From Liolophura sinensis (Eukaryota > Mollusca > Polyplacophora > Chitonida > Chitonidae): 64,000 nucleotides of DNA. The position numbers were made by a program, and so were the translations under genes. Location: assembly GCF_032854445.1 (NCBI RefSeq), contig NC_088295.1, positions 19,703,385 through 19,767,384 of the forward strand, written 5' to 3'. How positions within the stretch are numbered: the stretch's first letter is position 1; every line of letters begins with the position of its first letter. Positions 10,601 through 61,596 of this stretch are shown here, piece after piece. A model generated the notes under the pieces. That model was not told the DNA's origin. It saw only the letters and a list, made by a program, of their open reading frames with translations, and did no database searches.

Positions 10601-13600
10601 ACAGTAAAGAGCTCTTTAAATTTCACCAAGTTTATTGTGACGTTTTATTTTACATTCTAAACTTCCATAAAGCTCTTCCTGATTTCCTAAAATTGGACCT
10701 AAAGAGTAAATTTTTATGGTTCTGATGTTCAGGATCACTGTCAACAGAAGCTTTTATTGCAGTTCCACCGATGATTCTGTTCTCAGGTTTCAGCGACCCC
10801 TATTGCATGCTGGGAATTATGCCTGGCAAAGTCCCAGAGGACGCCATGAATGCCATCTCCTCAGACGAAGATTCTGCCAAATCCAAGGAGAAGGAAAAGA
10901 AAGGCCCATTGAAAAAGTTTTCACAAAGTTTGAAGAAAAAGAAAGACAAAACTCATGCTGTGAGGGACATGTTACCTGCCAAGTTGATCAAGACAACCAG
11001 TGTGAAGAACAACACTTTGAACCCTGTGTGGAACGAGAAGTTCAGATTGTTAGTATGAAGTCTAACACCTTGAATTCTGTGTTGAACAAGAAGCTCAGAT
11101 TATGAGCATAACAATATCACTTAGACCCTGTGTGGAATGTGAAGTTCAGATTGTTAGTATGAAGTCTAACACCTTGAATTCTGTGTTGAACAAGAAGCTC
11201 AGATTATGAGCATAACAATATCACTTAGACCCTGTATGGAATGTGAAGTTCAGATTGTTAGTATGAAGTCTAACACCTTGAATTCTGTGTTGAACAAGAA
11301 GCTCAGATTATGAGCATAACAATATCACTTAGACCCTGTATGGAATGTGAAGTTCAGATTGTTAGTATGAAGTCTAACACCTTGAATTCTGTGTTGAACA
11401 AGAAGCTCAGATTATGAGCATAACAATATCACTTAGACCCTGTATGGAATGTGAAGTTCAGATTGTTAGTATGAAGTCTAACACCTTGAATTCTGTGTTG
11501 AACGAGAAGTTCAGATCATGAGCATAACAATATCACTTAGACCCTGTATGGAATGTGAAGTTCAGATTGTTAGTATGAAGTCTAACACCTTGAATTCTGT
11601 GTTGAAGAAGAAGCTCAGATTATGAGCATAACAATATCACTTAGACCCTGTATGGAATGTGAAGTTCAGATTGTTAGTATGAAGTCTAACACCTTGAATT
11701 CTGTGTTGAACAAGAAGTTCAGATCATGAGCATAACAATATCACTTAGACCCTGTATGGAATGTGAAGTTCAGATTGTTAGTATGAAGTCTAACACCTTG
11801 AATTCTGTGTTGAACAAGAAGTTCAGATTATGAGCATAACAATATCACTTAGACCCTGTATGGAATGTGAAGTTCAGATTGTTAGTATGAAGTCTAACAC
11901 CTTGAATTCTGTGTTGAACGAGAAGTTCAGATCATGAGCATAACAATATCACTTAGACCCTGTATGGAATGTGAAGTTCAGATTGTTAGTATGAAGTCTA
12001 ACACCTTGAATTCTGTGTTGAACAAGAAGTTCATATCATGAGCATAACAATATCACTTAGACCCTGTATGGAATATGAAGTTCAGATTAGTATTATTGTA
12101 TTCTAATACCTTGAATTGTATGCTTCAATTTAGAGTTTTGAAGTTGTAATAGAATATGAGTGTATAACACCTTAAGCTCTGTGTAGAACAAGAAGTTTAG
12201 ATTATTGGTCAAACAAAATCACCTTCTCATGGGAAGGAGGATTTACAGCCCCACCATGAACACTTTACAGGAAGAAAGTTAGGAATTGTAGGTGTGGTAG
12301 TAACAAAAAATGAGAATTAAAGATTGCTGCATGTAGAGTTTTAAGTTAGTCCAAGTTTCATTATTTCAGTCATGAAAGTGAGCCTTATAAAAAACTAAAA
12401 ATGATATAAAATTATATCATTTAATGATATAAAACAACTTACCCTCTACTTTCAGTGACCTTGATGATGTATATACTGACAGATTACATCTGGATATTTG
12501 GTAAGTGTTTTATTGCTGTAAATGCTCTTATTACATGGTTGTTTTGCTAATACTCACTGTAATTACATGTATGTCAGAATACATATACAGGTACTCGAGA
12601 ATTACGTGGTCGTTTTGCTAATACTCACCATAATTACATGTATGTCAGAATACGTATACAGGTACTCGAGAATTACGTGGTTGTTTTGCTAATACTCACC
12701 GTAATTACATGTATGTCAGAATACATATACAGGTACTCGAGAATTACGTGGTTGTTTTGCTAATACTCACCGTAATTACATGTATGTCAGAATACGTATA
12801 CAGGTACTCGAGAATTACGTGGTTGTTTTGCTAATACTCACCGTAATTACATGTATGTCAGAATACATATACAGGTACTCGAGAATTACGTGGTTATTTT
12901 GCTAATACTCACCGTAATTACATGTATGTCAGGATACATATACAGGTACTCGAGAATTACGTGGTTGTTTTGCTAATACTCACCGTAATTACATGTATGT
13001 CAGAATACATATACAGGTACTCGAGAATTACGTGGTCGTTTTGCTAATACTCACCATAATTACATGTATGTCAGAATACGTATACAGATACTCGAGAATT
13101 GCATGGGCATATTCAATTATTTAAGCCTTAATAATTTATGATTTATAAAATAGAAAATTTAAAGGTTTGCTTGCCCTTAGAAGCAGTCACCATGTGGGTT
13201 ATGGTGACCACATGTATACTGTATTGACTACACTGATGAGAATATATCTACATTCATCCCAGTCTGCTGTTCATATCCTCAGGAGATTTTCGTGTCAAGA
13301 AATCTAGTTGCAAATATACAGTCATCTGGCAGAAGAGAGAGGAGAAAAAACAAGCCAGACCATGTTGTCACATGGTGCGGAAATTATTACAGTTGAATGG
13401 ATTCTCTTTAGGCGCTGGAAAGCTCTGGCTGCTCCGCTGTGTAACTACTTTATCAGCAGAATATCACTGGCAAAGCTCCCTCCTCAAATATTAGTTTATA
13501 ATCACTTATATTGTGTTGTCCATAAGAGTATCCTCCAGGTAGATCTGCAGTCCTACAAGTTAATCTTGACTGTTATATCTGTAGTTTGTTACCTAATCCA

Positions 13601-19600: not shown

Positions 19601-22600
19601 GTTCCCTTCTAAAATGTAGAAAAGACTTATATATGTATATAGAATACTAAGTACATTCTGTTATGTAAGTCTCCATCGTCCTTGTATAAGAGCTAATGAT
19701 ACCGACCTATATGTAGGTTTCTAGGACTGATTCAGTTGGGTATTTACTTTTTACAGAAAGGTACTCTTGAATGGTATGAGAGGATGCATGCCATCTCCAA
19801 GGCTCAAGCCAGGGTAAGGATCCACATCACTTACGTTTTTGGATAACTGAATGCCCACTAGTGCAACGACTACTAATGTAGTGTGATTAATACCTATATT
19901 AAAATGTGCCATAGGGCCATGTAATTTCCTGTGATGTTGGATTTATATACATACTAGCCTAACAATTTTGTGGATCACCATGGTACATGGTTCCGAACAT
20001 TTTGAGCAGTTGAAATCAGCTACTTCTTGTTTATTGGTACATGTTGCCCTCATTTTCGTACTGTTTTGAATACCACCCTCCAGAGGCATGTTTATTACAG
20101 CTGTGATTGATTCTGTCATGTGTGGGCGAATGTGTAGTATGAATAGAAGTACTGCATGTGGATATTTTTGTTGTACACTGATGAAGATCACCAATACTAC
20201 ATGTAGCTAGTAACATTGATTCTGTGTCATGTAATATTGACTTGATTTACAATAGGGGTTTGTTGCTGATGTTGTAGACAGATGAGGATGTGATCCAGTC
20301 CCTGATAGAACTCACCAACATTGTCAACAATGATGTCTACAAGGCAGAGCATTATTATAACAAAATATTTAACAGGTAAATTCTGCCAGGCACTGAAAGC
20401 GTTTGCTATGGTATCAAGATTGCCAGTTTCCCAGTGTCCACTATTTATACAGGTGTGACTTCTTGTCCTGTCTACAGCTCTGAATATGATGCAGTTATAA
20501 TTTTAGCTAGACACATAGACACAGAGATGACAATACTGCCATCAGAACCAGATTGTGTATTTCCCTGTGTCCGCTATTTATACAGGTGTGACTTCTTGTC
20601 CTGTTTACAGCTCTGAATATGATGCAGTTATAATTTTAGCTAGACACATAGACACAGAGATGACAATACTGCCATCAGAACACGATTGGTTATTTCCCTG
20701 TGTCTGCTATTTATACAGGTGTGACTTCTTGTCCTGTCTACAGCTCTGAATATGATGCAGTTATAATTTTAGCTAGACACATAGACACAGAGATGACAAT
20801 ACTGCCATCAGGACCAGATTGTGTATTTCCCTGTGTCTGCTATTTATACAGGTGTGACTTCTTGTCCTGTTTACAGCTCTGAATATGATGCAGTTATAAT
20901 TTTAGCTAGACACATAGACACAGAGATGACAATACTGCCATCAGAACACGATTGGGTATTTCCCTGTGTCTGCTATTTATACAGGTGTGACTTCTTGTCC
21001 TGTCTACAGCTCTGAATATGATGCAGTTATAATTTTAGCTAGATACATAGACACATAGACGACAATACTGCCATCAGGACCAGATTGTGTATTTCCCTGT
21101 GTCCGCTATTTATACAGGTGTGACTTTTTGTCCTGTCTACAGCTCTGAATATGATGCAGTTATAATTTTAGCTAGATACATAGACACATAGACGACAATA
21201 CTGCCATCAGGACCAGACTGTGTATTTCCCTGTGTCCGCTATTTATATAGGTGTGACTTCTTGTCCTGTCTACAGCTCTGAATATGATGCAGTTATAATT
21301 TTAGCTAGACACATAGACACAGAGATGACAATACTGCCATCAGGACCAGATTGTGTATTTCCCTGTGTCCCCTATTTATATAGGTGTGACTTCTTGTCCT
21401 GTCTACAGCTCTGAATATGATGCAGTTATAATTTTAGCTAGACACATAGACACAGAGATGACAATACTGCCATCAGAACCAGATTGTGTATTTCCCTGTG
21501 TCCGCTATTTATATAGGTGTGACTTTTTGTCCTGTCTACAGCTCTGAATATGATGCAGTTATAATTTTAGCTAGATACATAGACACATAGACGACAATAC
21601 TGCCATCAGGACCAGATTGTGTATTTCCCTGTGTCCGCTATTTATATAGGTGTGACTTCTTGTCCTGTCTACAGCTCTGAATATGATGCAGTTATAATTT
21701 TAGCTAGATACATAGACACAGAGATGACAATACTGCCATCAGGACCAGATTGTGTATTTCCCTGTGTCCGCTATTTATACAGGTGTGACTTTTTGTCCTG
21801 TCTACAGCTCTGAATATGATGCAGTTATAATTTTAGCTAGATACATAGACACAGAGATGACAATACTGCCATCAGGACCAGATTGTGTATTTCCCTGTGT
21901 CCGCTATTTATACAGGTGTGACTTTTTGTCCTGTCTACAGCTCTGAATATGATGCAGTTATAATTTTAGCTAGACATATAGACACAGAGATGACAATACT
22001 GCCATCAGAACCAGATTGTGTATTTCCCTGTGTCCGCTATTTATACAGGTGTGACTTCTTGTCCTGTCTACAGCTCTGAATATGATGCAGTTATAATTTT
22101 AGCTAGACACATAGACACAGAGATGACAATACTGCCATCAGGACCAGATTGTGTATTTCCCTGTGTCCGCTATTTATACAGGTGTGACTTTTTGTCCTGT
22201 CTACAGCTCTGAATATGATGCAGTTATAATTTTAGCTAGACACATAGACACAGAGATGACAGTACTGCCATCAGAACACGATTGGGTATTTCCCTGTGTC
22301 CGCTATTTATACAGGTGTGACTTCTTGTCCTGTCTACAGCTCTGAATATGATGCAGTTATAATTTTAGCTAGATACATAGACACAGAGATGACAATACTG
22401 CCATCAGAACCAGATTGTGTATTTCCCTGTGTCCGCTATTTATACAGGTGTGACTTCTTGTCCTGTCTACAGCTCTGAATATGATGCAGTTATAAGTTTA
22501 GCTAGACACAGAGATGACAGTACTGCCATCAGAACACGATTGGGTATTCCCTAATACATGCACGTGTACATTCAGTATAAATAGGACCATATTAGTTTGA

Positions 22601-31600: not shown

Positions 31601-34600
31601 CACAGAGACAGTTTCTCTACATTTAATAGCTTGCTTCATTCTGAAAATCTTTCATTTGGGCCCAAATGTGCCTGACATAGAATTGATTGTACAAATGCAA
31701 AAGAACTCTGGTTTTTAAAGTATCATTGATCTTAAATTACGTATAATATGTATATACTTTCTTCAATAATGTACAGCTTTATTATGTATATTATATACTT
31801 TTATAATAATAATGTCTAGTTTAATACAGTGTTGCCACTGCACTTCAGGGCATCATTCTGACATGGCTGTACATGTATCTTTCAGATGAGACCATACAGA
31901 TATTAATACAGTGTTGCCACTGCACTTCAGGGCATCATTCTGACATAGCTGTACACGTATCTTTCAGATGAGACCAGATATTAATACACTGTTGCCACTG
32001 CACTTCAGGGCATCATTCTGACATGGCTGTACATGTATCTTTCAGATGAGACCATACAGATATTAATACAGTGTTGCCACTGCACTTCAGGGCATCATTC
32101 TGACATGGCTGTACACGTATCTTTCAGATGAGACCAGATATTAATACAGTGTTGCCACTGCACTTCAGGGCATCATTCTGACATGGCTGTACATGTATCT
32201 TTCAGATGTGACCAGATATTAATACAGTGTTGCCACTGCACTTCAGGGCATCATTCTGATATGGCTGTACGTATATCTTTCAGATGAGACCATGCAGATA
32301 TTAATACAATGTTGCCACTGCACTTCATGGCATCATTCTGATATGGCTGTACATGTATCTTTCAGATGAGACCATGCAGATATTAATACAGTGTTGCCAC
32401 TGCACTCCAGGGCATCATTCTGATATGGCTGTACATGTATCTTTCAGATGAGACCAGATATTAATACAGTGCTGCCACTGCACTTCAGGGCATCATTCTG
32501 ACATGGCTGTACATGTATCTTTCAGATGAGACCATGCAGATATTAATACAGCGTTGCCACTGCACTTCAGGGCATCATTCTGATATGGCTGTACATGTAT
32601 CTTTCAGATGAGACCATGCAGATATTAATACAGTGTTGCCACTGCACTTCAGGGCATCATTCTGACATGGCTGTACATGTATCTTTCAGATGAGACCAGA
32701 TATTAATACAGTGTTGCCACTGCACTTCATGGCATCATTCTGACATGGCTGTACATGTATCTTTCAGATGAGACCATGCAGATATTAATACAGTGTTGCC
32801 ACTGCACTTCAGGGCATCATTCTGACATGGCTGTACATGTATCTTTCAGATGTGACCAGATATTAATACAGTGCTGCCACTGCACTTCAGGGCATCATTC
32901 TGACATGGCTGTACATGTATCTTTCAGATGTGACCAGATATTAATACAGTGTTGCCACTGCACTCCAGCACATCATTCTGACATGGCTGTACATGTATCT
33001 TTCAGATGAGACCAGATATTAAGAAAGACGTTTTTCACCTGAATTGGGCTCCAGAATCTGTCCCGGCTGAAGATGTAAGTTCAAAGAATTGTACTTCAAC
33101 AAAGGTCAGATTATTAAATTAATTATTTAAACTGAACTAAAAGTTGGTGTTTTTGCTCACTGATTTTCTCCTATGCAAAACTTATTTCAGTGCAATTCTG
33201 TTATACCTCTTTAGAAGGCTTTTCTGGAAAAAGTGATACATGTACTTGTGTATTGGTTTAAATTTATGTAACTATAAAGATATGTGCATTCTTTTTGTCT
33301 TCGCTGCAGGCTGTCGTTGACCTTATGGAGTATCTGGACAGTAACCTGCTGACCTTGAACAATAACCTTCTGAGGTCAAATTTTGACCGGATCCTGGAGT
33401 CCATCTGGGTGGAGGTGCTGGAAGAGTTCAAGGATGTGATGATCAAGGAGGAGCAGGTCAAAATTTTACCTGAGATTGTGTGTGTGTGAGGATGTGTGTT
33501 ATTTGTGGGTGAGTGCAGATAGCACCTGAGGATATGTCTTATTTGTGTGTGATTGCAGATAGCACCTGAGGATGTGTGTTATTTGTGTGTGACTACAGAT
33601 AGCACCTGGGGGTGTATGTTATTTGTTTGTGTTTACAGATATAGATAGCACCTGAGGATGTGTATTATCTTGTGGGATTACAGATAGCACCTGAGGATGG
33701 ATGTCATCATATGTGATTACAGATAGCACCTGTGGATGTATATCATCATGTGTGATTACAGATAGCACCTGAGGATGTATGTTCTTGTGTTTGATTACAG
33801 ATAGCACCTGAGGGTGTATGTTATTTGTTTGTGATTACAGATATTAACTAAGGATGTATATTATTTGTGTGTGATTACAGATAGCACCTGAGGATGTACA
33901 CTGTATGTTATTGTGTGTGATTACAGATAGCACCTTAGGATGTATGTCATTGTATATGATTGCAGATAGCACCTGAGGATGTGTGTTATCTTGTGTGATT
34001 ACAGATAGCACCTGAGGATGTGTGTTATCTCGTGTGATTACAGATAGCACCTGAGGATGTATGTTATTGTGTTTGATCACAGATAGCACCTGAGGATGCA
34101 TGTTGTTGTGTTTGATCACAGATAGCACCTGAGGATGTATGTTATTTTGTGTGATTGCAGATAGCACCTGAGGATGTATGTTATTGTGTGTGATTACAGA
34201 TAGCACCTGAGGATGTATGTTATTTGTTTGTGATTGCAGATAGCACCTGAGGGTGTATGTCATCATGTGTGATTACAGATAGTACCTGAGGATGCATGTT
34301 ATTGTGTGTGATTACGGATAGCACCTGAGGATGTATGTTATTTATGTGTGATTGCAGATAGCACCTGAGGGTGTATGTCATCATGTGTGATTTCAGATAG
34401 CACCTGAGGATGTATGTCATCATGTGTGATTACAGATAGCACCTGAGGATGCATGTTATCTTGTGTGATTACAGAACGTACCTGAGGGTGCATGTTATTT
34501 TGTGTGATTACAGATAGCACCTGAGGACGTGTGTTATTTATGTGATTGCAGATAGCACCCGAGGATATGTGTTATGCATGTGATTACAGATAGCACCTGA

Positions 34601-37600
34601 GGATGTATGTTATTGTGTGTGATTACAGATAGCACCTGAGGATGTATGTTATTTGTTTGTGATTGCAGATAGCATCTGAGGGTGTATATCATCATGTGTG
34701 ATTACAGATAGTACCTGCGGATGCATATTATTGTGTGTGATTACAGATAGCACCTGAGGATGTATGTTATTTATGTGTGATTGCAGATAGCACCTGAGAG
34801 TGTATGTCATCATGTGTGATTTCAGATAGCACCTGAGGATGAATGTTATTTGTGTGTGATAGCACCTGAGGATGTAAGTTATTTTGTGTGATTACAGGTA
34901 GCACCTGAGGATGTATGTTATTGTGTTTGATAACAGATAGCACCTGAGGATGTATGTTATTTTGTGTGATTACAGGTAGCATCTGAGGATGTATGTATTT
35001 TGTGTGATTCCAGATAGCACCTGAGGATGTGTGTTATTTGTGGATGATTACAGTTAGCGCCTGAGGATGTATGTCATCGTGTGTGATTATTGATAGCACC
35101 TGAGGATGTATGTCATCATGTGCCATTACAGATAGCACGTGAGAATGTATGTCATCATGTATGATTACAGATAGCACCTGAGGATGTGTGTTATTGCGCG
35201 TGATTACAGATAGCACCTGAGTATTCATGTTATTGTGTGTGATTACAGAGAGCACCTTAGGATGCATGTTATTGTGTGTGATTACAGATAGCACCTGAGG
35301 ATGTATGTTATTGTGTGTGATAACAGATAGTACCTGAGGATGTATGTTATTGTGTGTGATAACAGATAGCACCTGAGGATGTATGTTATTTTTGTGTGAT
35401 TACAGATAGCACCTGAGGATGTGTGTTATCTCGTGTGATTACAGATAGCACCTGAGGATGTATGTTATTGTATGTGATTACAGATAGCACCTGAGGGTGT
35501 ATGTTGTTTGTCTGTGATTATAGATATTAATAGAGGGTGTATATTATTTGTGTGTGATTACAGATACAGATAGCACCTGAGGATGTGTGTTATTATGGGT
35601 GATTACAGATAGCACCTGAGGATGTATGTTATTGTGTGTGATTACAGATAGTACCTGAGGATATATGTTATTGTGTGTAATTACAGATAGCACCTGAGGA
35701 TGTGTGTTTGCATGTGTGATTACAGAGAGCATCTGAAAATGTACAAGCATGTTATTTATGTATGATTGCTGAAAGCACCTGCAGGTGTGTGTTTGCATGT
35801 GTAATTACACACAAGTGCCTAAGAACATGTACAGTATGTTTTGTATGATTACAGAACGTACCGGAGGATGCATATTTTTGTGTATATTTACAAGAGGACA
35901 CACCTGTATATATTATTCTGTATAATTACAGAGTACCTGCTGATGTACATGAACATGTGTGTTTTTGCATTTGATTACAGAAAGCACCTGCATTTTACTT
36001 AAGAATGTATGAAGCTCTGGGACTGCTGGTGGATTTCTTCCATGCTAATGAAAAAGGATTACCTGTACAAACCATAAAGTGTCCACAATACAGGGTATGT
36101 ACATGTATGCTATCGCATGCTCTCCCTTCTGTATTCAGTTCAAATTTTAGTCAAGAAAACTTATCAGTGATTAGATCAGATGTTGTGGTAGTTCTACGTA
36201 CATACTGCAGGGGTTCATAGAAGTCGTCTGGACAAGCCGGTATTCCGATTCCGTCGATTGAATAAAAGACTCAGTAATTGGTCATATTTATTCGATTTGA
36301 GGTTGTTTTTGAAAAGAAATATTCAAAATTTTACATAAACTCAGTTTGAACATATCAGTCACAACATCAATGTCGCCTGCTCCGGACAAACAAGACAATG
36401 CCACACTTTAGTCAATGTCACAACTATTCATAAATACAGAAAAAAAAAACAAATGAGATCTCAGCCGTAAATAAAACTGATCATTTAAGTCTCATTTCTG
36501 GTATGCCATTTTTTGTGATCAGTTCTTCCAAAGAAACCAAACGCCATGTGTAATGGTCCCGTCACACCTGTAAGCCAAAGTCCATTACACCTGTAATCCA
36601 AAGTCCGTCACAAGTCTGTCACACCTGCGATCCAAAGTCCATCACACCTGTAATCCACAGGTGTCACAAGTCCTTCACACCTGTAATCCAAAGTCCATCA
36701 CACCTGTAATCCCAAGTCCTTCACACCTTTAATCCAAAGTCCGTCACAAGTCTGTCACACCTGCAATCCAAAGTCCATCACACCTGTAATCCCAAGTCCT
36801 TCACACCTGTAATCCAAAGTCCGTCACAAGTCTGTCACACCTGCAATCCAAAGTCCATCACACCTGTAATTCAAGGTCTCTCACAGCCAGGCTGTTCAGA
36901 CAGTTTTCTATGCCGTCGGCCCCGCCGTGGAAGAGTATCTCAAGTTTCACGTAAAATATAGCAGTCTTGGCTGCTGAGCTGTGTATGGTTCAAATCTCAG
37001 TAAAGCCTTAACAAATGCTGTTTCACTGACAGAAGGGACGTCCACACTGTCACAGGTCTGAATTTCTTCTCCCTTCCTTCAAGATATCCGCCTCCCATGA
37101 CAACTCATGGCATTAATTATATTCAGAAATTTCTGCAGCTCTGGCATTCATTGGACCACAAATCTATTGTTGGTTCACGAACATTGATATTCTGAAACCT
37201 AGTCATCTTCACAGTTCATTGGACGCTTCGCCGTGTCCCACATTTCTGTGTACCGTAAATCTGTGTATTTTTCGTTGACCACTGACTGATGAAAGTCATT
37301 TAAATCAAGTACCTAACAATATCCAAAGTTCAGTGAAGTTACCTGTTCGCGGTACGAGTTTACATGATACTCTTCATGATACTCCATATTGATTACATTA
37401 AAAAAAGCAATTTTTGGAATATATGAAATCAAACATGACACATTGTAGGCTTCTTTGATCTCTGCCCAATCGGTCCTCAGGAATGAATGGACCTACTTCA
37501 GCTTCTGATTGTTCTAGTTTGGCAATAGCGTGCCGATTGACTGCAAATGTGACAGGTTTCATGTGATTAGTACCCGTCAAATCAGACTTTGTTTTTACTG

Positions 37601-40600
37601 CTTTTGTAGATTGAAATCTTTGTTTATTTTGACAGTTAACGATAATATTTCAAGAGACTCTAGATAACGCACAGTGCATTCATCTGGATGCACTATTGGG
37701 AATGACAACCACATATTCCATAAGCCAATAAGGCATGGCCATTCTGTCTTACATTATTGAATATTTTTTAAAAGTGATGTCAAGTGACGACCAATTACTC
37801 ATGTGAGTTAAGTCAATCTAGACTGATGCTCTGTATTGTAAGTGTTCTGGGCAGGTCTTCACACTTCACTGGACTGGTATCCTGAAATACATGTAACAGT
37901 AACTGCAATGTGTGCCGATTATCAATTTACAGTATCAACCAGGAGACCAGCTTGAGTTCATATGTAGGCAGGGACCGTTTCTTCAATCAGTGAAGTCTAG
38001 TAACACACAAAAATATTCAGTATTAGTGTCTTAAACTTAGTTTCAGGTGAAAAAAAAATCAATTTCGCTTAGAAAGTGGCAGTGAGTACATAGAAAAATG
38101 ACTTCTGTGAACCCCTGTACTGTCATATGGACAGCGCATGTACTTGTTAGAGTGTTTTATATCTCTCAATAACGGTGTGGTTAAGGCAGCCTCAAATGAA
38201 TTATTTTGTTTACCCTCAGGAGTTACGAGAACAGCTTGGCTTGCGGAGGATGGAAACCAGAGATCTGATAGAGAAATTCTACATGGAGAAGCTACAGGCT
38301 CAGGTGGGAATCTAGGAAAATATACAGCTGAATGCCTAAAGGATTTGCTCAGAGATGATAATACAAATATCAATTTTTGAACCACACAAATATGTTTTTC
38401 AATACCTTGTAATAAATAGTTGAAAACTGTAAGGAACTTTTTAGAACTTTCAGTGATATTAAAATATATAATATTGGCATCTTTCAATACATGTATCCTT
38501 TCTGTCCATTTCTGCATACAGAAAGAACTAGAGAAGACAGATTTTGGAGTGCTTACTGTGAGAGTCTCCTATAAATTTGATTCTCACACTTTACTGGTGG
38601 AGGGTAAGTTATAATACCAATGACGCAAACAATTTTCTGTTCAACTTTTTTATGAAATCATGCAAGCAGATCTTTTTGTTTTCCATCCACTTTTTCCAAA
38701 ACATTTGTACATTTACTTTAAAATCAAGTTCTTGAAGATTAAGAGGAGAATTCAGTAGATTATAAGCCTGTTTCTTGTTTGATACTGAAATTCTTTTTTT
38801 CTATCTGTTTTGCAGTGGTTCATGCTCGAGATATTATTCCCCTGGATGCAAATGGTAAACCTTCTTGTTTCATTTATTTTGGCTTAATTTGTAGTACAGG
38901 TACTACAGTTTAAAGACATTTTTATGGTTTGTATTTTTCATGGATATGGGATTTATGCATGAGTGTGTAATGAAAGGGGTTTAATGTATTTTGCTAGAAT
39001 TTTCACTTGTACAATGGTAGTCAGTTTTATGGGTGGAGGAAACCAGAGTGCTGGGGATAAACCACCAAACTCAAGCAAGTTACTTATAAACTCTCCCAAC
39101 TGTGAAGAATATATATGCTACATGAGTGGAAGGCATTAAGTGGTCTTCAAAGAACATTAGACCGTCACCATACCTCATGAATCCAGGGAATGCACAAATT
39201 CACTAACCAGGGCTAGTATTGAGCCCCCCTTTGGTGTGTCTTACTGGTTGAAAAACAAGTGTTTTAACCATGATCATGGTCCTCTCCCTCCAAAAAAAAT
39301 AATGTGGTTTATGATTTTGAACAATACACATACATGTAACAGGTGTAAATATTCTCAGTTTGAGTTTTTGTTTTGTTCGCAGGGCTCAGCGATCCATTTG
39401 TCCTTATTCAGCTCTGTCCTGAACACATCTTCCCAGGGGTCCAGATACAACAAACCAAAGTCATTAAGAAAACCCTCAACCCAGACTTTGACGAGAGATT
39501 TGAATTGTAAGTGTTTAGATCTGAACTGCTGAAGAGCAGACTGTGTGTGTGATTTGTTTATGTTACAATTGGTGTTTTTTTTTTTTTTTAAACTAAAGTT
39601 TCATATGATGGCCATCTATGAAGACTGGAGTTACAGTGTGTGCCACATTTATTATATATGAAAGGGATATTTACTGCTTCCTGCTGTGACTCATACACGT
39701 GTGTCAGATCGATATAAAAAATTCCTGCTGACATTTGTTACTGGTCATAATTCTACTTCCTGTAGCATGGTGTGTGAGTGCAGGCTTATTCTTCTTGTAA
39801 TAATTTGATCGATCCACTTCCTGTAGTGTCAGCGCTGTGTGTTGTTCTGCTTGTCATGGTTCGACTTTTCTATTGTTCTCAGTTCCATTCATCCTGACCA
39901 GTGTGCATTCCACGGGTCCTGTATTGTCTTCACTGTCATGGATCATGATATCATGTTCCAAAATGACTTTGCTGGGGAGGCATTTTTATCACTGCGGGAA
40001 ATCCCAGGCGTGGACGGCGAGGAAGTGACTGGTTATGATGCTCTTCATGAAATACAGCTTCCTCTTGCACAGCCCAAACATAAAGGTATATCCATGTTAT
40101 AGCAAACACCACTTCCCCTTTGCACAACCCAAACACAAAGGTATCTCAGGTAGTGTTAGACCAAATACAGCTTCTTTTTTCACAGCCCAAACACAAAGGT
40201 ATATCCATGTTATAACAAACACAGCTTCCCTCGCACAACCCAAACACAAAGGTATCTCAGGTAGTGTTAGACCAAATACAGATTCTTTTTTCACAGCCCA
40301 AACACAAAGGTATATCCATGTTATAACAAACACAGCTTCCCCTCACACAACCCAAACACAAAGGTATCTCAGGTAGTGTTAGACCAAATACAGCTTCTTT
40401 TTTCACAGCCCAAACACAAAGGTATATCCATGTTATAACAAACACAGCTTCCCCTCACACAACCCAAACACAAAGGTATCTCAGGTAGTGTTAGACCAAA
40501 TACAGCTTCTTATTTCACAGCCCAAACACAAAGGTATATCCATGTTATAACAAACACAGCTTTCCCTTTGCACAACCCAAACACAAAGGTATCTCAGGTA

Positions 40601-43209
40601 GTGTTAGACCAAATACAGCTTCTTTTTTTCATAGCCCAAACACAAAGGTATATCCATGTTATAACAAACACAGCTTCCCCTTTGCACATCCCAAACACAA
40701 AGGTATCTCAGGTAGTGTTAGACCAAATACAGCTTCTTTTTTCACAGCCCAAACACAAAGGTATATCCATGTTATAACAAACACAGCTTCCCCTTGCACA
40801 ACCCAAACACAGAGGTATCTCAGGTAGTGTTAGACCAAATACAGCTTCTTATTTCACAGCCCAAACACAAAGGTATATCCATGTTATAACAAACACCACT
40901 TCCCCTTTGCACAACCGAAACACAAAGGTATCTCAGGTAGTGTTAGACCAACTACAGCTTCTTATTTCACAGCCCAAACACAAAGGTACCTCTATGTTAT
41001 AACAAACACAGCTTCCCCTTTGCACAACCCAAACACAAAGGTATCTCAGGTAGTGTTAGACCAACTACAGCTTCTTATTTCACAGCCCAAACACAAAGGT
41101 ACCTCTATGTTATAACAAACACAGCTTCCCCTTTGCACAACCCAAACACAAAGGTATCTCAGGTAGTGTTAGACCAACTACAGCTTCTTATTTCACAGCC
41201 CAAACACAAAGGTATATCCATGTTATAACAAACACAGCTTCCCCTTTGCACAACCCAAACACAAAGGTATCTCAGGTAGTGTTAGACCAAATACAGCTTC
41301 TTATTTCACAGCCCAAACACAAAGGTATATCCATGTTATAACAAACACAGCTTCCCCTTTGCACAACCCAAACACAAAGGTATCTCAGGTAGTGTTAGAC
41401 CAAATACAGCTTCTTTTTTCACAGCCCAAACACAAAGGTATATCCATGTTATAACAAACACAGCTTTCCCTTTGCACAACCCAAACACAAAGGTATCTCA
41501 GGTAGTCTTAGACCAAATACAGCTTCTTATTTCACAGCCCAAACACAAAGGTATATCCATGTTATAACAAACACAGCTTTCCCTTTGCACAACCCAAACA
41601 CAAAGGTATCTTAGGTAGTGTTAGACCAAATACAGCTTCTTTTTTCACAGCCCAAACACAAAGGTATATCCATGTTATAACAAACAAAGCTTCCCCTCAC
41701 ACAACCCAAACACAAAGGTATCTCAGGTAGTCTTAGACCAAATACAGCTTCTTATTTCACAGCCCAAACACATAGGTGTCTCCATGTTCTAACAAACAAA
41801 GCTTCCCCTCACTCAACCCAAACACAAAGGTATCTCAGGTAGTGTTAGACCAACTACAGCTTCTTATTTCACAACCCAAACACAAAGGCATTTCAGGTAG
41901 TGTTAGACCAAATACAACTTCTTCTTGCACAACAATTTCTTGTGCAATACACACAGCAGATATCTCTCTCACCACAAACATACGAGACTGATATACCAAA
42001 TGCAGCCCCATTGTGTACAACACAAAAATAAAGTTGTCAAAACGATAGAATGATAGACCAAAAAAATTTAGATATTTGAAGTGCTTATAACAGGGATTTC
42101 GTTCTGCGAGATGTGCAAACCCATGCAGCTATATTTGAGCATTGGAACTTGTAACAGTCACACACAATTCAGAAAAATCTTGTGCATTTTATATGAGTCT
42201 TGTATATGTGACACCTGAGACTTTACCTGGGCTCAAACACACATGTAGTTCCAGGTCAAAATCAAAAAAATACACATTAAAAAAAGATTAGGGCTGTGCT
42301 GAATACTGGACTGTGGACGGTTCGCAATGTTGTAGCGCTGGCATAAATGGCCACAAGATTTTGTTTATCCCATATTTGACCAGTTCTGTCCATGCATCTG
42401 CACTGATGCACCACTCCAAGCATGTATCTGGCTTATACCAAACACTTTTGCACAATCCAAAGATAAAGGTACATACATCCCAGTGTATGACCAAATACAG
42501 TTTCTTGCATAAGAATGACCACAGACTTACATGTACCCTATTTCTTCTAAATTTTGTGCCACTTGGTCTGTTCATTTTAGCCAATATATATGTAATTCTA
42601 GGGAGATTATTGAATTTCTTTTTTCTCACATGGTTAGACTATCAGACGAACATCATACTCACACCTTTAGTTTTCCAAAAGGCTGGTAAAGAAATGTAAT
42701 ATTCTACTTTCATCACTACTAATATCTGTGCCAAATTTTAAAAGAATTAGGGTATTTTTATCAGAACAATGTGCCAAATACAGCCTTGCACACAGCACAG
42801 TTACAAAGATAACAGAAACTGAAAGATACAGACAGCACTACTCATTCTTGCACTACAGTAGGCAAATATCAGAATTATATACCAAATACAGCCCACTCTC
42901 AGATTGCATAACACCAACATAAAAATACCACAGTGATACATTAAATACAGCAAATGGAGATAGTTTCAGTATTATATCCATCTGTGAAGTTATATTAAAG
43001 GGTAAAAATGTGCAATTTCTTTTCTTTTCACAATCTTATACATTCATATATCATAGAATTTTATGGCTTTTCTTTCTCTAAACATATCTGTCTTGTTTCT
43101 CTTTTTGACAGAAAACGGTGCCTTTGAAATCTTGCTGGCGAGAACATTTGACAAGGAGGCTCAGGATTTTGCCAAGAAAAGAGCTAAAGTTGAGGAACAG
43201 GCAGTTTGA
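1612..43209 (+). CDS. BAIAP3: BAIAP3/UNC13D-like (Munc13-4 family) C2-MUN-C2 protein, 30 exons, 5' partial
   Basis: Hand-built join of 30 exons (listed separately) giving 3378 coding bases, 1125 residues and a TGA at 43207. Every junction is GT-AG and phase-consistent. Approximate residues: 1-60 linker, 85-265 first C2, about 400-880 MUN-like helical region, 945-1095 second C2, short charged tail. Both C2 domains keep the loop-1 and loop-3 aspartates used for calcium binding (DADGFSDP with WDHDD; DANGLSDP with MDHD). Known for the family: these proteins act on late endosomes, dense-core vesicles and secretory granules, where the MUN domain promotes SNARE-dependent priming or vesicle recycling. 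Length is close to human BAIAP3 (about 1190) and UNC13D (about 1090), so only a short N-terminus is missing. The GRFFKQ segment, the lysine-rich C2 insert and the KEAQDFAKK end look BAIAP3-like. Ortholog status against UNC13D is inference. Confidence 0.93.
1841..2925 (+). repeat. 111-bp minisatellite, about 9.8 copies (intron 1)
   Basis: Near-identical units start at 1841, 1952, 2063, 2174, 2285, 2396, 2507, 2618, 2729 and 2840. Each unit begins CAACTGACTACACACATAG and ends near TTCTCATAAGAGT. Because 111 is 37 codons, the array carries a stop-free 402-residue frame that is an artefact. It abuts the Gypsy-like element, and its last unit breaks off at 2925. Confidence 0.95.
3049..3850 (+). pseudogene. 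Gag-like remnant with broken CCHC zinc knuckle
   Basis: Fragments in several frames. Near 3756-3800 a CYHC start is followed, after a frameshift, by the second cysteine pair of a retroviral-type zinc knuckle. A basic, glutamine-rich stretch precedes it. Not functional as read. Confidence 0.65.
3900..4190 (+). pseudogene. Retropepsin-like protease remnant
   Basis: Lies between the knuckle and the reverse transcriptase, as in Gypsy elements. The frame around 3970 retains an IVDT core resembling the aspartic protease active site, but the expected glycine is not present. Stops follow at 4023. Confidence 0.45.
4330..5200 (+). pseudogene. Reverse transcriptase remnant
   Basis: Family blocks occur in order across shifted frames: a WFSPIVV-type block near 4540, a GLDL block near 4700, [10 protein letters not shown] at about 4797-4826, and FIDNICVFG near 4872, where the catalytic YxDD-type aspartates are altered. 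A SFRGL motif typical of the RT/RNase H border is near 5115. Inactive. Confidence 0.8.
5200..5805. mobile_element. Interruption of the Gypsy pol region, possible nested insert
   Basis: About 600 bp with no pol similarity separates the RT/RNase H border from RNase H (resumes near 5810). Its local composition differs (GTGACTGTAGCGTCACGACC, TGACGTCATT) and resembles LTR-type promoter sequence. I could not define its ends or a target duplication. Confidence 0.4.
5810..6575 (+). pseudogene. RNase H and integrase zinc-binding remnant
   Basis: An RNase H-like segment (TDKAF-type block near 5898) is followed by the integrase HHCC module at about 6340-6465: two histidines before a YWWPKM core, then CSTC. 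The start of the integrase catalytic core (GIDFVGP) is at about 6565-6585. Frameshifted and interrupted. Confidence 0.75.
6700..7455 (+). pseudogene. Integrase core end and basic C-terminal module remnant
   Basis: Around 6730-6860 a DTGSQ-type and a YHPK-type block match the later part of the integrase core. 7006-7455 reads as a basic C-terminal domain with [12 protein letters not shown], typical of Gypsy integrase tails, ending at a TAG. Catalytic residues cannot all be found. Confidence 0.7.
7500..7774 (+). repeat. Candidate 3' LTR of the Gypsy element
   Basis: 275 bp beginning TGTTAAATG and ending GGTGTAACA, which gives matching TGTTA/TAACA termini. Positions 7702-7760 align with 2931-2989. 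The rest of the 5' copy does not align convincingly, so the ends are tentative. Confidence 0.45.
8067..8234 (+). CDS. BAIAP3: Exon 2: conserved N-terminal segment before C2A
   Basis: 168 bp, phase 0 to 0, 56 residues. The [15 protein letters not shown] segment and the [17 protein letters not shown] helix match the family-specific segment just before the first C2 domain. Acceptor tttgtttcag, donor gtaagc. Confidence 0.95.
8885..9149 (+). mobile_element. Full-length tRNA-derived SINE with target-site duplication
   Basis: Head has an A box (TGGCTCAGTTGG at 8895-8906) and a B box (AGTTCAAGTCC at 8964-8974). The body contains the CGGATGGTTGTGGGTTT and CTGGCCGCCATCGTAT blocks, and the tail GGCGTAAAACACCAATC plus (AAAT)n. 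The flanks ATACAATTAATGTT (8871) and ATACAATCAATGTT (9150) differ by one base, so they are a target duplication. An internal 72-residue ORF is not a gene. Confidence 0.93.
9164..10371. other. Rest of intron 2, nothing recognised
   Basis: AT-rich intron with a poly-A-rich patch near 9835-9860. No exon or element identified. Confidence 0.6.
10372..10438 (+). CDS. BAIAP3: Exon 3: start of C2A
   Basis: 67 bp, phase 0 to 1. Encodes [20 protein letters not shown] and the first calcium-loop aspartates (KDADG). The split glycine codon is completed by exon 4. Donor gtgggt. Confidence 0.95.
10787..11048 (+). CDS. BAIAP3: Exon 4: C2A core with lysine-rich insert
   Basis: 262 bp, phase 1 to 2. Starts [13 protein letters not shown], then an acidic stretch (SSDED) and a lysine-rich insert ([13 protein letters not shown]), and ends [12 protein letters not shown] plus a split phenylalanine codon. 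The basic insert could bind acidic lipids; that is inference. The donor is the weak gttagt. The last 50 bp of this exon are the founding copy of the downstream 104-bp array. Confidence 0.95.
11049..12205 (+). repeat. 104-bp minisatellite seeded from the end of exon 4, about 10 copies plus decayed tail
   Basis: Units start GTTAGTATGAAGTC at 11049, 11153, 11257 and so on. Each unit is a dimer of two 51-53 bp halves, both ending like the exon (AAGTTCAGATT or AAGCTCAGATT). The half-unit matches exon bases 10999-11048 at 40 of 50 positions. Every second half ends with a copy of the real junction TTCAGATT/GTTAGTATG. Degenerate copies run to about 12205. Confidence 0.95.
12456..12500 (+). CDS. BAIAP3: Exon 5: C2A strand between loops
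   Basis: 45 bp, phase 2 to 2. Encodes [14 protein letters not shown] and a split Trp. Acceptor ctactttcag, donor gtaagt. It joins NEKFRF upstream and WDHDD downstream, restoring a canonical C2 loop 3. Confidence 0.95.
12535..13098 (+). repeat. 71-bp minisatellite, about 8 copies (intron 5)
   Basis: Period 71, marked by GGTACTCGAGAATTACGTGG (first near 12590, last degenerate near 13088). Contains TTTGCTAATACTCACCGTAA and TGTATGTCAGAATAC blocks. No exon sequence is included, unlike several other arrays in this gene. Confidence 0.93.
13099..15319. other. Rest of intron 5: homopolymer tracts and a diverged SINE fragment
   Basis: A poly-G run near 13794-13808 is followed by poly-T to about 13842. 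Near 15128-15215 an ACTTGCCAAAAGCCAGTGG/CAGTTTCCTCCACC fragment resembles the SINE body. No exon seen. Confidence 0.55.
15320..15485 (+). CDS. BAIAP3: Exon 6: C2A loop 3 and end
   Basis: 166 bp, phase 2 to 0. Gives [18 protein letters not shown], a [12 protein letters not shown] segment and [11 protein letters not shown]. The GRFFKQ segment is close to BAIAP3 in style. Acceptor acaccacag, donor gtgagt. Confidence 0.96.
15628..15697 (+). mobile_element. SINE-body fragment (intron 6)
   Basis: TTGCCAGAGGTCATTGGTTT followed by CCAGTTTCCTCCACCCATAA; same body variant as 15128, 51293 and 54805. Short and diverged. Confidence 0.5.
15857..16060 (+). CDS. BAIAP3: Exon 7: C2A C-terminal strand and linker
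   Basis: 204 bp, phase 0 to 0, 68 residues. [11 protein letters not shown] and [12 protein letters not shown] are the last C2 strands, followed by an acidic linker ([17 protein letters not shown]). Acceptor ctggtttcag, donor gtaagt. Confidence 0.96.
16348..16465 (-). mobile_element. Truncated SINE copy (intron 7)
   Basis: Plus strand reads TTTATTTATTTGTTTGATTGGTGTTTCAC, then ACTCAAGAATATTTCAC and GGTGGGAGGAAACTGAGC. Diverged, head missing. Confidence 0.75.
16812..16915 (+). CDS. BAIAP3: Exon 8: start of helical region
   Basis: 104 bp, phase 0 to 2. Encodes [19 protein letters not shown], a family segment after C2A in which W-x-G-x-L-x-x-x-A is typical. Acceptor tttggtcag, donor gtcagt. Confidence 0.95.
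17026..17043 (+). repeat. Poly-G run
   Basis: Uninterrupted G tract of about 18 bases in intron 8. Confidence 0.9.
17277..17394 (+). CDS. BAIAP3: Exon 9: helical region
   Basis: 118 bp, phase 2 to 0. Encodes [20 protein letters not shown] and an acidic helix LLEELEEIW. Acceptor atttttcag, donor gtgggt. Confidence 0.95.
17395..18233. other. Intron 9, nothing recognised
   Basis: AT-rich, no repeat array or ORF of note. Confidence 0.6.
18234..18358 (+). CDS. BAIAP3: Exon 10: MUN region start
   Basis: 125 bp, phase 0 to 2. Encodes [20 protein letters not shown] then [16 protein letters not shown]. The [10 protein letters not shown] segment is typical of the BAIAP3/UNC13D branch. Confidence 0.95.
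18359..19215. other. Intron 10, nothing recognised
   Basis: AT-rich; short similar phrases such as TTCACTGTAATGTA/TTATCTTGATCAT recur near 18465, 18520 and 19010 as weak direct repeats. Confidence 0.5.
19216..19306 (+). CDS. BAIAP3: Exon 11: MUN region
   Basis: 91 bp, phase 2 to 0. Encodes [20 protein letters not shown] and [11 protein letters not shown]. Donor is the weak gtacac. Confidence 0.94.
19757..19813 (+). CDS. BAIAP3: Exon 12: MUN region
   Basis: 57 bp, phase 0 to 0, [19 protein letters not shown]. The G-T-x-E-W motif is characteristic of this family. Confidence 0.93.
20278..20375 (+). CDS. BAIAP3: Exon 13: MUN region
   Basis: 98 bp, phase 0 to 2. Encodes [20 protein letters not shown] then [11 protein letters not shown]. 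The acceptor used is gttgtag at 20277, because the alternative acag four bases later would break the frame. Donor gtaaat. Confidence 0.93.
20430..22555 (+). repeat. 133-bp minisatellite, about 16 copies (intron 13)
   Basis: Each unit carries CTATTTATACAGGTGTGACTT, then TCCTGTCTACAGCTCTGAATA, then GCTAGACACATAGACACAGA. Units thus hold a donor-like ACAG/GTGTGA and an acceptor-like CTACAG/CTCTGAATATG, which resembles the next exon's CATTGAACATG start. Repeated 64-residue ORFs are artefacts of the array. Some units have a small deletion (CACATAGACGACAATA). Confidence 0.95.
22777..22828 (+). CDS. BAIAP3: Exon 14: MUN region
   Basis: 52 bp, phase 2 to 0, [17 protein letters not shown]. Acceptor cttttttcag, donor gtatgt. 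Confidence 0.93.
23074..23109 (+). CDS. BAIAP3: Exon 15: 36-bp short exon
   Basis: Phase 0 to 0, [12 protein letters not shown]. Strong pyrimidine acceptor and gtaagt donor. It can be skipped without changing frame, so it may be alternatively used; that is inference. Confidence 0.85.
23439..23593 (+). CDS. BAIAP3: Exon 16: MUN region
   Basis: 155 bp, phase 0 to 2. Encodes [20 protein letters not shown] and [12 protein letters not shown]. The [12 protein letters not shown] helix is a MUN hallmark of this branch. Acceptor gtgtctgtag, donor gtaagt. Confidence 0.96.
23870..23993 (+). CDS. BAIAP3: Exon 17: MUN region
   Basis: 124 bp, phase 2 to 0. Encodes [20 protein letters not shown] and [10 protein letters not shown]. 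The WF-x-x-A-V-x-x-W-L pattern is conserved in the family. Confidence 0.96.
24164..24172 (+). other. Possible 9-nt microexon (intron 17)
   Basis: A pyrimidine-rich stretch ending TAACCATGAAG is followed by GGAGAAGTG and a consensus GTAAGT. Inclusion would add Gly-Glu-Val in frame between exons 17 and 18. Sequence logic only. Confidence 0.25.
24450..24530 (-). mobile_element. Diverged SINE fragment (intron 17)
   Basis: Plus strand TGTATTTATTTGATTGTTTA, then AATACTCAAGAATTTTCCAC and GACGGTGGTTAG match the 3' half of the SINE in reverse. Confidence 0.7.
24997..25232. mobile_element. Candidate TTAA-type (piggyBac-like) MITE
   Basis: A 236-bp segment starts TTAACCCATG and ends CAAAGGGTTAA, giving TTAA plus CCC/GGG at both ends, as expected for a non-autonomous TTAA-target element. 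Inverted similarity beyond the first 7 bases is weak and there is no coding capacity. Confidence 0.4.
26149..26289. repeat. Long imperfect palindrome / foldback element
   Basis: Arms of about 67 nt around a 7-nt loop (26216-26222). The inner 19 bp, ending ATTTTCATTTGTTCC on the left and beginning GGAACAAATGAAAAT on the right, are perfect; the outer arm (GCAATNNGTNACNCATTATATC) pairs with scattered mismatches and no indel. Likely a foldback MITE. Confidence 0.88.
27707..27775 (+). CDS. BAIAP3: Exon 18: MUN region
   Basis: 69 bp, phase 0 to 0. [20 protein letters not shown] then FNQ; the K-x-S-T-S-A-V-D motif is strongly conserved in the BAIAP3/UNC13D branch. Confidence 0.96.
28043..28117 (+). 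CDS. BAIAP3: Exon 19: MUN region
   Basis: 75 bp, phase 0 to 0, [20 protein letters not shown] then SKVTE. Donor gtgaga. Confidence 0.95.
28674..30208 (+). repeat. 87-bp minisatellite carrying copies of the exon 20 acceptor, about 17 units
   Basis: Each unit has CTTCATTTGTACACAG followed by GACATTTGTAATGGTGCAATG, the same acceptor and first 21 exon bases as the real exon at 30209. Acceptor copies fall at 87-bp steps, except one short unit near 29323 and an irregular one near 29598. 87 is 29 codons, so both strands show long open frames that are artefacts. Confidence 0.96.
30209..30310 (+). CDS. BAIAP3: Exon 20: MUN region, last acceptor of the 87-bp array
   Basis: 102 bp, phase 0 to 0. [20 protein letters not shown] then an acidic stretch ending DVTEQ. 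The start is set by frame and by the loss of similarity to the array after GGTGCAATG. Upstream decoy acceptors are in the same frame. Confidence 0.93.
30420..31131. mobile_element. Probable dispersed repeat ending in a (CAAT)n tail (intron 20)
   Basis: Two to three related blocks (TTTTGTCCATGGATCTCCTC, near 30635 TTTTGTCCATGCAACTCTTC, near 30795 TTTTGACCATGCAGCTCCTG) recur at about 160-bp spacing, each followed by a CATCTTNCNTATCA phrase. A separate piece at about 31012-31131 ends AAATAAAGTTTGTCAATC plus CAATCAAT copies, like the 3' end of a non-LTR element. Family not identified. Confidence 0.45.
31329..31544 (+). CDS. BAIAP3: Exon 21: MUN region core
   Basis: 216 bp, phase 0 to 0, 72 residues. 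[20 protein letters not shown] is the family hallmark (C-x-x-x-N-N-I-E-x-x-R), followed by [20 protein letters not shown]. Confidence 0.97.
31826..33005 (+). repeat. 78/82-bp minisatellite carrying copies of the exon 22 acceptor, about 14 units
   Basis: Each unit reads GTTGCCACTGCACTTCAGGG, CATTCTGACATGGCTGTACA, then TGTATCTTTCAG/ATGAGACCAGATATTA. The last 16 bases equal the true start of exon 22. Two unit lengths alternate because some carry an extra CATGCA or CATACA after GAGAC. Reading on from a decoy acceptor meets a TGA within about 20 codons. Confidence 0.95.
33006..33074 (+). CDS. BAIAP3: Exon 22: MUN region
   Basis: 69 bp, phase 0 to 0, [20 protein letters not shown] then AED. The initial Met is internal. 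Last acceptor of the adjoining array. Donor gtaagt. Confidence 0.93.
33310..33456 (+). CDS. BAIAP3: Exon 23: MUN region C-terminal part
   Basis: 147 bp, phase 0 to 0. Encodes [20 protein letters not shown] and [20 protein letters not shown]. Its donor is the weak gtcaaa, chosen because it joins EEQ to KAPAFYLR in frame; a gtgtgt a little downstream is the alternative. Confidence 0.9.
33500..35980 (+). repeat. 36-40 bp minisatellite carrying copies of the exon 24 acceptor, about 60 units
   Basis: Typical unit GTGATTACAG/ATAGCACCTGAGGATGTATG, mostly 39 bp. The real exon edge is TTGATTACAG/AAAGCACCTG, so each unit repeats the acceptor plus about 10 exon bases. Units become irregular toward 35750-35980. 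Minus-strand ORFs made of repeated HPQVLSVI are artefacts. Confidence 0.95.
35981..36094 (+). CDS. BAIAP3: Exon 24: end of MUN region
   Basis: 114 bp, phase 0 to 0. [20 protein letters not shown] then [13 protein letters not shown]; the FHA-x-x-x-GLP motif is conserved in the family. Donor gtatgt. Confidence 0.95.
36555..36885 (+). repeat. Degenerate 23-25 bp minisatellite (intron 24)
   Basis: Repeats of TCACACCTGTAATCCAAAGTC with variants (CTGCAATCC, AATCCCAAGTCC) and a longer period that includes CGTCACAAGTCTG. Confidence 0.85.
36886..38219. other. Rest of intron 24, nothing recognised
   Basis: Mixed AT-rich sequence with no array, exon or known element identified. Confidence 0.5.
38220..38303 (+). 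CDS. BAIAP3: Exon 25: helix before C2B
   Basis: 84 bp, phase 0 to 0, [20 protein letters not shown] then YMEKLQAQ. The T-x-x-L-I-x-K-x-Y/F segment precedes C2B in this family. Confidence 0.95.
38522..38603 (+). CDS. BAIAP3: Exon 26: start of C2B
   Basis: 82 bp, phase 0 to 1. [20 protein letters not shown] then SHTLLVE, first C2 strands. Confidence 0.95.
38816..38854 (+). CDS. BAIAP3: Exon 27: C2B loop 1
   Basis: 39 bp, phase 1 to 1, [12 protein letters not shown]. Contributes the first calcium-loop aspartate. Donor gtaaac. Confidence 0.93.
39383..39506 (+). CDS. BAIAP3: Exon 28: C2B core
   Basis: 124 bp, phase 1 to 2. [20 protein letters not shown], then [14 protein letters not shown]-type C2 strand. 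Donor gtaagt. Confidence 0.96.
39883..40085 (+). CDS. BAIAP3: Exon 29: C2B loop 3 and end
   Basis: 203 bp, phase 2 to 1. [20 protein letters not shown] then [11 protein letters not shown], ending [10 protein letters not shown]. The weak donor gtatat and the last ~35 exon bases are the founder of the following array. Confidence 0.95.
40086..41930 (+). repeat. 113-bp minisatellite seeded from the end of exon 29, about 16 units (32 half-units)
   Basis: Each unit is two halves: GTATATCCATGTTATAACAA followed by an exon-like CAACCCAAACACAAAG, and GTATCTCAGGTAGTGTTAGA followed by CAGCCCAAACACAAAG. Both halves end like exon 29 (CAGCCCAAACATAAAG) and are followed by GTAT, so each half rebuilds a donor. 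Decayed copies (for example near 42440 and 42770) extend toward 42930. Confidence 0.96.
41931..43111. other. Rest of intron 29 with decayed array copies
   Basis: Scattered phrases such as CAATCCAAAGATAAAGGTAC (42456) and GACCAAATACAG (42489) are remnants of the 113-bp unit. No exon seen before 43112. Confidence 0.6.
43112..43209 (+). CDS. BAIAP3: Exon 30: C-terminus and stop
   Basis: 98 bp, phase 1, ends TGA at 43207. [20 protein letters not shown] then [12 protein letters not shown]. The KEAQDFAKK helix resembles the BAIAP3 C-terminal end rather than UNC13D. Confidence 0.93.
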
Positions 43210-51290: not shown

Positions 51291-51395
51291 TAACTTGCCA
51301 AAAAAGTCAGTGCCTTACCTTGGTCACACCGGTTTCCTTCACCCATAAGTGTGACTGCCATTGTATGAGTAAAACAAATCTTGAGTACATTAAAC
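51291..51395 (+). mobile_element. SINE-like fragment at the edge of the 37-bp array
   Basis: TAACTTGCCAAAAAAGTCAG, CCGGTTTCCTTCACCCATAA, GACTGCCATTGTATGAGTAA and a degraded AAACAA end. Same body variant as 15128 and 15628. Confidence 0.6.
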
Positions 51396-55241: not shown

Positions 55242-55299
<58 letters not shown>

Positions 55300-61508: not shown

Positions 61509-61596
61509 TTCCCCCGGGTCTGCTCGGTGTCCTCCCATCCGTCGTAGAAGTGAAATATTCCTGAGAACGGCGCAAAACACCAATGAAATAAATAAA
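61509..61596 (+). mobile_element. 5'-truncated SINE with 11-bp target-site duplication inside the 36-bp array
   Basis: GAAATATTCCTGAGAACGGC and CAAAACACCAATGAAATAAA tail. Flanks TATCTAACCAC at 61497 and 61597 match exactly. Confidence 0.85.

Follow-up and report, generated by a model that had tools for sequence, protein, structure and literature searches.

Tandem arrays that copy exon edges and splice sites recur in a Munc13-4-like gene and in myosin genes of the chiton Liolophura sinensis

The window analysed here is a stretch of 64,000 nucleotides from the genome of the chiton Liolophura sinensis (contig NC_088295.1, positions 19,703,385 to 19,767,384 of the forward strand). It contains a gene that was modelled with 30 exons (1612-43209) and one open frame of 1125 amino acids, in which all 29 of the 29 introns have GT..AG ends. 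Since the model opens with an acceptor, the 5' end of the gene is missing from it. The encoded protein matched Unc13D in the PDB (9la9) with an E value of 1.8e-173, and its domains comprise two C2 stretches and a MUN domain. On the basis of this match and of the C2 and MUN content, the gene is Munc13-4-like; it may be the orthologue of either UNC13D or BAIAP3.

Intron 1 appears to hold a decayed LTR retrotransposon (2926-7770), recognised by eye from its frames (a gag-like CCHC piece, an integrase-like frame and stops). Its LTRs may be represented by the similar pieces at its ends, near 2931-2999 and 7695-7765, and the element directly adjoins the 3' end of the intron 1 array. Just downstream of the Munc13-4-like gene, a 5.5-kb array with a 37-bp unit occupies 45790-51292; a second array, also with a 37-bp unit and unlike the former in sequence, lies at 56474-57582. 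The likely next gene (54400-59490) has a cysteine-rich stretch that by eye looks TNF-receptor-like, together with a hydrophobic stretch and a tail, and an 18-bp minisatellite is found in the open frame of this tail (59160-59267). Further, pieces of tRNA-derived SINEs with a 'cgtaaaacaccaat' tail, a type known from molluscs, were seen by eye at 600-800, 8890-9140, 58290-58440 and 61510-61610.

TRF detected 12 arrays of at least 150 bp in the window, nine inside the gene and three beyond it (Table 1). Each array's unit was compared by alignment with 59 exon edges and with 60 dinucleotide-shuffled versions of itself. For five of the 12 arrays, namely those in introns 4, 19, 21, 23 and 29, the best of the 59 edges was that of the adjoining exon, with scores of 93 (donor 4), 94 (acceptor 20), 84 (acceptor 22), 37 (acceptor 24) and 93 (donor 29). 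All five values (37-94) exceeded the maxima of the corresponding shuffles (27-32; means 20-24). In line with this, the sequence-only reading, according to which the repeat units in these five introns copy the adjoining exon edge and its splice site, on the donor side in introns 4 and 29 and on the acceptor side in introns 19, 21 and 23, with the real exon as the first or last member of each row, was borne out, and the presence of edge-copying arrays in five introns is confirmed. The same reading had named intron 13 as a probable sixth case. This was rejected, as its own-edge scores, 19 and 16, fell inside the shuffle range (mean 21.1, maximum 27). The remaining seven arrays, i.e., those of introns 1, 5, 13 and 24 and the three outside the gene, matched none of the 59 edges above the shuffle maximum.

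Table 1. Window positions of the arrays inside the Munc13-4-like gene and of the exons next to the edge-copying ones.
Feature	Position	Strand	Description
Intron 1 array	1841..2925	+	111-bp unit, 145 bp past donor; no exon copy found
Exon 4	10787..11048	+	founder of the intron 4 array (final 36 bases plus donor)
Intron 4 array	11013..12117	+	104-bp unit, two diverged ~52-bp halves, both like the exon 4 end
Intron 5 array	12530..13100	+	71-bp unit, starts 29 bp past donor; no exon copy found
Intron 13 array	20427..22514	+	133-bp unit; not edge-founded at the sensitivity used
Intron 19 array	28672..30229	+	87-bp unit: acceptor and first 21 bases of exon 20
Exon 20	30209..30310	+	closes the intron 19 row as its last member
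Intron 21 array	31821..33022	+	78-82-bp unit: acceptor and first 17 bases of exon 22
Exon 22	33006..33074	+	closes the intron 21 row as its last member
Intron 23 array	33643..35743	+	39-bp unit, more diverged: acceptor and up to 12 bases of exon 24
Exon 24	35981..36094	+	gene model
Intron 24 array	36561..36885	+	no exon copy found
Exon 29	39883..40085	+	founder of the intron 29 array (final 36 bases plus donor)
Intron 29 array	40050..41888	+	113-bp unit, two ~56-bp halves, each with the exon 29 end and donor AAAG/GTAT

The edge-copying arrays measure 1.1-2.1 kb and affect two donors and three acceptors in the window. When the real edge was excluded, the copies that span the junction amounted to 17 of 21 in intron 4, 17 of 18 in intron 19, 14 of 14 in intron 21, 54 of 56 in intron 23 and 32 of 33 in intron 29; in intron 23, diverged copies continue beyond the array toward exon 24. 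The donor of the intron 4 unit, ATT/GTTAGT, sits in its first half. Since two diverged halves, both of them edge-like, make up the 104-bp unit and likewise the 113-bp unit, amplification probably took place in at least two rounds.

The sequence-only reading had known of no described class of repeats with this property. However, the kind is already known: the available excerpts of two reports describe, under the name of mirages, minisatellite-like tandem units across the 5' or 3' exon-intron border in several amphioxus genes, the name being coined for Adh3 and the arrays being present also in the globins BflGb6 and BflGb9, in TnC and in PGBD5 (PMC3087553, PMC3902484). The same excerpts report length instability, somatic at Adh3, and undisturbed splicing (PMC3087553, PMC3902484), and mirages were proposed, in the excerpt of the former, as raw material for the Rogers model, in which introns are gained when AG/GT proto-splice sites are duplicated in tandem (PMC3087553). 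As far as these excerpts go, the chiton arrays resemble amphioxus mirages in their border-spanning tandem units, in the splice signals carried by many copies and in their occurrence in several genes, whereas they differ in that the chiton is a mollusc and that its rows reach up to 54 junction copies, with five arrays in one gene. Their unit lengths, 39, 78-82, 87, 104 (2x52) and 113 (2x56) bp, lie within the mirage range of ~10-160 bp. With regard to the Rogers model as excerpted (PMC3087553), the likeness is that the duplicated segments bear splice signals; the difference is that the chiton copies sit within existing introns.

Two further cases of intronic minisatellites were compared. CeRep25B of C. 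elegans, over-represented in introns near alternative splicing regions according to the excerpt of its report (PMC4039745), is likewise an intronic minisatellite tied to splicing; however, as there described, it is a repeat family common to many genes, whereas the chiton units copy the adjoining exon edge. Intronic minisatellites are also described in earthworm metallothionein, and exon-edge copies are unmentioned in the excerpted text (PMC12783039). No report of mirages outside lancelets was found among the titles and abstract openings listed from the open-licence literature. What is new here is the occurrence in a mollusc, the five arrays in one gene and, as described below, the rate at which other genes are affected and the density centred on exons.

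The direction of copying was analyzed at the edge of exon 4, which encodes the TLNPVW stretch of a C2 domain, shared with Unc13D. In the intron 4 array, the first half-units are short of one base in the TLNPVW stretch, while the second half-units keep its length and run into a stop past the edge. Conservation of the exon 4 edge with Unc13D, together with half-units that are base-short or stopped, indicates that the exon is ancestral and that the intronic rows are derived. At two loci of the myosin sample described below, the unit includes coding sequence from within the Myosin_head match, with ~114 bp of exon in a 124-bp unit (L057) and ~48 bp of exon in a 95-bp unit (L076). A dispersed repeat or transposon as the source of the units was not supported, as all five matches of a genome search with exon 4 and part of the intron 4 array fell at the Munc13-4-like locus itself; this search concerned one array of the five, and very common words were skipped in it.

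Splice sites within the arrays were scored with a position matrix. Decoys that equal or exceed the real site numbered 18, 16, 12, 23 and 12 in introns 4, 19, 21, 23 and 29, respectively. Sites that strong or stronger occur in ordinary introns at 0.6, 3.9 and 0.9 per kb for acceptors 20, 22 and 24 and at 2.3 per kb for donor 29, and in these four cases the decoys are well above the ordinary intron; donor 4 is weak, sites as strong being present at 11.8 per kb in ordinary introns, so its excess is smaller. Every decoy would lengthen the exon, and the 104- or 113-bp units would mostly shift the frame. Exon definition probably picks the exon-proximal site. The splice dinucleotides are intact in 90-100% of the aligned copies. 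Their conservation was 0.964 and 1.0 in intron 23, compared to a mean of 0.941 over positions, and 0.90 in intron 4, compared to 0.979; in introns 19, 21 and 29 it was 1.0, as it is at most positions there, which makes these three weakly informative. As the dinucleotides are not clearly better kept than other positions, the profile fits tolerance of the copies rather than their use. Weak splice sites as the cause of the arrays were also considered and set aside: the scores of the five window sites are lower than the average of the other sites, but they were excluded from the scoring matrix, and several myosin mirage sites are strong.

The frequency of border-spanning arrays expected by chance was estimated by placing founder units randomly along a version of the gene in which the arrays had been collapsed, in six settings. 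Five of the nine intronic arrays span a border, compared to 0.8-1.2 expected (P 0.0003-0.003 over the six settings), a result that carries a selection bias as the window gene had been chosen for its pattern. A sample not chosen for the pattern was therefore needed.

Such a sample was drawn from the myosin motor family, for which a genome search gave 81 exon matches. The 54 stretches fetched, mostly with 350-bp flanks, covered 64 of these 81 matches, 17 being omitted. Exon edges were predicted from the HMM match and a splice matrix derived from the window gene, several of them scoring poorly, and the sample amounted to 127 edges (one exon yielded no acceptor) of this one gene family. A junction-spanning copy with a score of at least 30 was detected beside eight of the 127 edges, six donors and two acceptors (L044, L049, both edges of L051, L057, L067, L076 and L079). 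These edges are spread over seven of 19 myosin gene groups, as grouped by us according to contig and position, or over six without the weak L044. In a between-gene control, three of 7400 comparisons reached a score of at least 30, from which chance similarity would be expected at ~0.05 of 127 edges; the L044 and L051 donor scores, 35 and 33, are near the control maximum (34 for spanning matches, 37 overall). An earlier control of 918 comparisons, which admitted neighbouring exons of one gene, had a maximum of 100 and two spanning matches at 28 or more, presumably from such neighbouring exons. By a stricter count, in which the TRF array, 150 bp or longer, itself enters the exon, the number was six of 127; the array at L044, whose first copy is diverged, starts 59 bp off the edge, and no TRF array was called at the L051 donor. 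Mirage-type arrays recur in unrelated genes, namely the Munc13-4-like gene and the myosin groups.

The position of minisatellites relative to exons was compared with a background of 18 evenly spaced 10-kb windows of one scaffold (C1), with intron and intergenic sequence mixed; two C1 windows beside the gene, with one array each, were left out of the count. In this background, 15 arrays of at least 150 bp were counted over 169 kb of unique sequence, a density of 0.089 per kb. Border-spanning arrays at the 127 myosin edges (six, 1.24 per kb) stood at 14 times this value (0.43 expected; Poisson P 6e-6), arrays at 0-100 bp from the edges (10, 0.79 per kb) 8.9-fold (1.13 expected; P 3e-7) and arrays at 100-200 bp (at least five, 0.39 per kb) 4.4-fold (P 0.006), this last count being a lower bound because the flanks stop at 350 bp. 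When the upper 97.5% limit of the background was used instead, the P values were 9.5e-5, 2.5e-5 and 0.04, respectively. In the myosin sample, exon neighbourhoods are minisatellite-rich compared to the genome at large.

A similar profile was observed within the window gene, where arrays near an edge (overlapping it or at no more than 200 bp) numbered eight in 10.3 kb and far arrays one in 16.6 kb (P 0.003). The same comparison across four myosin gene spans was not significant (three near in 7.4 kb vs. three far in 27.5 kb, P 0.11); three of these four spans were completed after the mirage in them was already known, and the C1_675 mirage, at the first fetched exon, lies outside the introns counted. 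When the five gene spans were pooled, the density was 0.62 per kb near and 0.091 per kb far from exons (P 4e-4), the far value being that of the genomic background.

We also analyzed whether the enrichment is focused on the junction itself. Spanning arrays showed no significant excess over those at 0-100 bp (6 vs. 10, P 0.26). Array coverage was ~5% at the myosin edges and rose smoothly until it reached 16-19% at 200-300 bp; in the window gene it went from 7% at the edges to ~20%. The facing ends of the myosin arrays lay at -115, -113, -48, -16, -15, -9, 10, 14, 15, 30, 33, 46, 54, 59, 74, 89 and 94 bp and on to 268 bp, spread from the exon interior to 100 bp into the intron with no jump at the splice site and no fixed offset from it. 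Uniform placement within the flanks would give 3.4 spanning arrays, and seven of 27 were seen; the eight myosin mirage edges correspond to seven TRF arrays and one edge without a TRF array. In view of the coverage profile and the flank test, the idea that junctions form a sharp hot spot was abandoned. The lack of a jump at the junction and the density falling outward indicate, instead, an exon-centred zone of which the straddling arrays are the inner part. The mechanism common to all arrays that had been proposed from the sequence alone is thus partly supported: with sampled exon neighbourhoods rich in minisatellites and recurrence in other genes, a shared cause is reasonable, whereas a mechanism specific to splice junctions is not supported by the array ends or by the ratio of spanning to adjacent arrays.

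Taking these results together, we interpret the arrays as mirages, that is, border-straddling tandem duplications that multiplied in introns, are tolerated there and are commoner near exons, a reading to which we assign a probability of roughly 0.8. A short segment (~30-130 bp) straddling the exon-intron border would be duplicated in tandem, with the coding edge as the ancestor, held fixed by selection. The intronic copies would multiply, presumably by slippage or unequal exchange, homogenise and drift, probably neutrally, from the coding sequence. The arrays would be tolerated because the splicing machinery, on the assumption that splicing is correct, keeps the exon-proximal site in use, though many decoys are equally strong by sequence. 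In the chiton, the birth or survival of minisatellites may be more frequent in the ~200 bp around exons than in the rest of the genome, so that border-straddling ones would be common.

An explanation that does not exclude mirages is chance overlap, in which introns are rich in minisatellites, some founders happen to straddle borders and exons are irrelevant. The facing ends, roughly flat from -20 to +100 bp in the 350-bp flanks, would be in line with it, as would the coverage, which climbs away from the edge with no peak at the junction, the similar numbers of spanning and adjacent arrays and the 3.4 spanning arrays expected within the flank for the seven observed. We consider it rather unlikely, however, in view of the 14-fold and 9-fold densities of spanning and 0-100 bp arrays over the background and of the proportion of spanning arrays in the window gene, picked for its pattern as it was. 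Exon borders could, on the other hand, be fragile or prone to slippage (by a nucleosome edge, an R-loop or repair at transcribed edges), so that minisatellites are born there, as the sequence-only reading had suggested. The point estimate of density is highest at the junction and drops with distance, and the arrays recur in the window gene and in seven of 19 myosin groups (L044 being weak); against this, there is no sharp peak at the junction and the array ends have no fixed offset, and we hold this explanation as a tentative one that we would not favour.

Selection, in turn, might keep the repeated splice sites because they tune splicing, either by acting as decoys or by providing a reserve of alternative sites. 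This would be consistent with the dinucleotides being intact in nearly all copies and with the long open frame of the 29-codon unit in intron 19 (204 and 278 codons). However, dinucleotide conservation, which does not clearly exceed that of other positions, did not support selection on decoy sites; moreover, neither 104 nor 113 bp, the unit lengths in introns 4 and 29, is divisible by 3, and several myosin mirage junctions (L057, L067) have strong real sites, which together make such a role improbable. Lastly, tandem arrays are a frequent source of assembly errors, and the rows could in principle be an artefact. This we regard as highly improbable: similar structures occur at other loci, and the arrays of 1.1-2.1 kb compare with a mean read length of 8,347 bp for the PacBio HiFi reads from which, according to the excerpt of its report, the Liolophura japonica assembly was built (PMC11068029), taken here to be the assembly in question.

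Beyond the genes sampled, we put forward, with somewhat less than even confidence, that exon neighbourhoods serve as birthplaces of minisatellites in certain animal lineages, the density falling over a few hundred bases and a few percent of borders being copied into the next intron in long rows. If this is true, mirages would follow generally from an exon-centred process instead of being peculiar to lancelets, and would keep supplying new splice sites and introns; lancelet mirages have earlier been linked to intron birth. The presence of mirages at several percent of the sampled chiton exon borders means that the process is no chordate oddity. The chiton genome offers a testbed both for why minisatellites gather at exons and for how splicing finds the correct site when twelve or more copies are just as good.

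Two minor observations concern single arrays. The intron 19 array is open in the frame of its unit for 204 and 278 codons (28671-29285 and 29555-30391, respectively) because the unit measures 87 bp, i.e., 29 codons, and the second open stretch enters exon 20 in frame. This open frame is likely due to chance; an upstream copy used as an acceptor would add whole 29-aa repeats. In the myosin sample, L051 together with L080 (G000:C2:5376442-5379794) carries an acceptor-side mirage with a 32-bp unit that extends over 1,361 bp and 42.9 copies; upstream of it lies another block built of this unit, and the donor side of the L051 exon shows a weaker copy of the junction.
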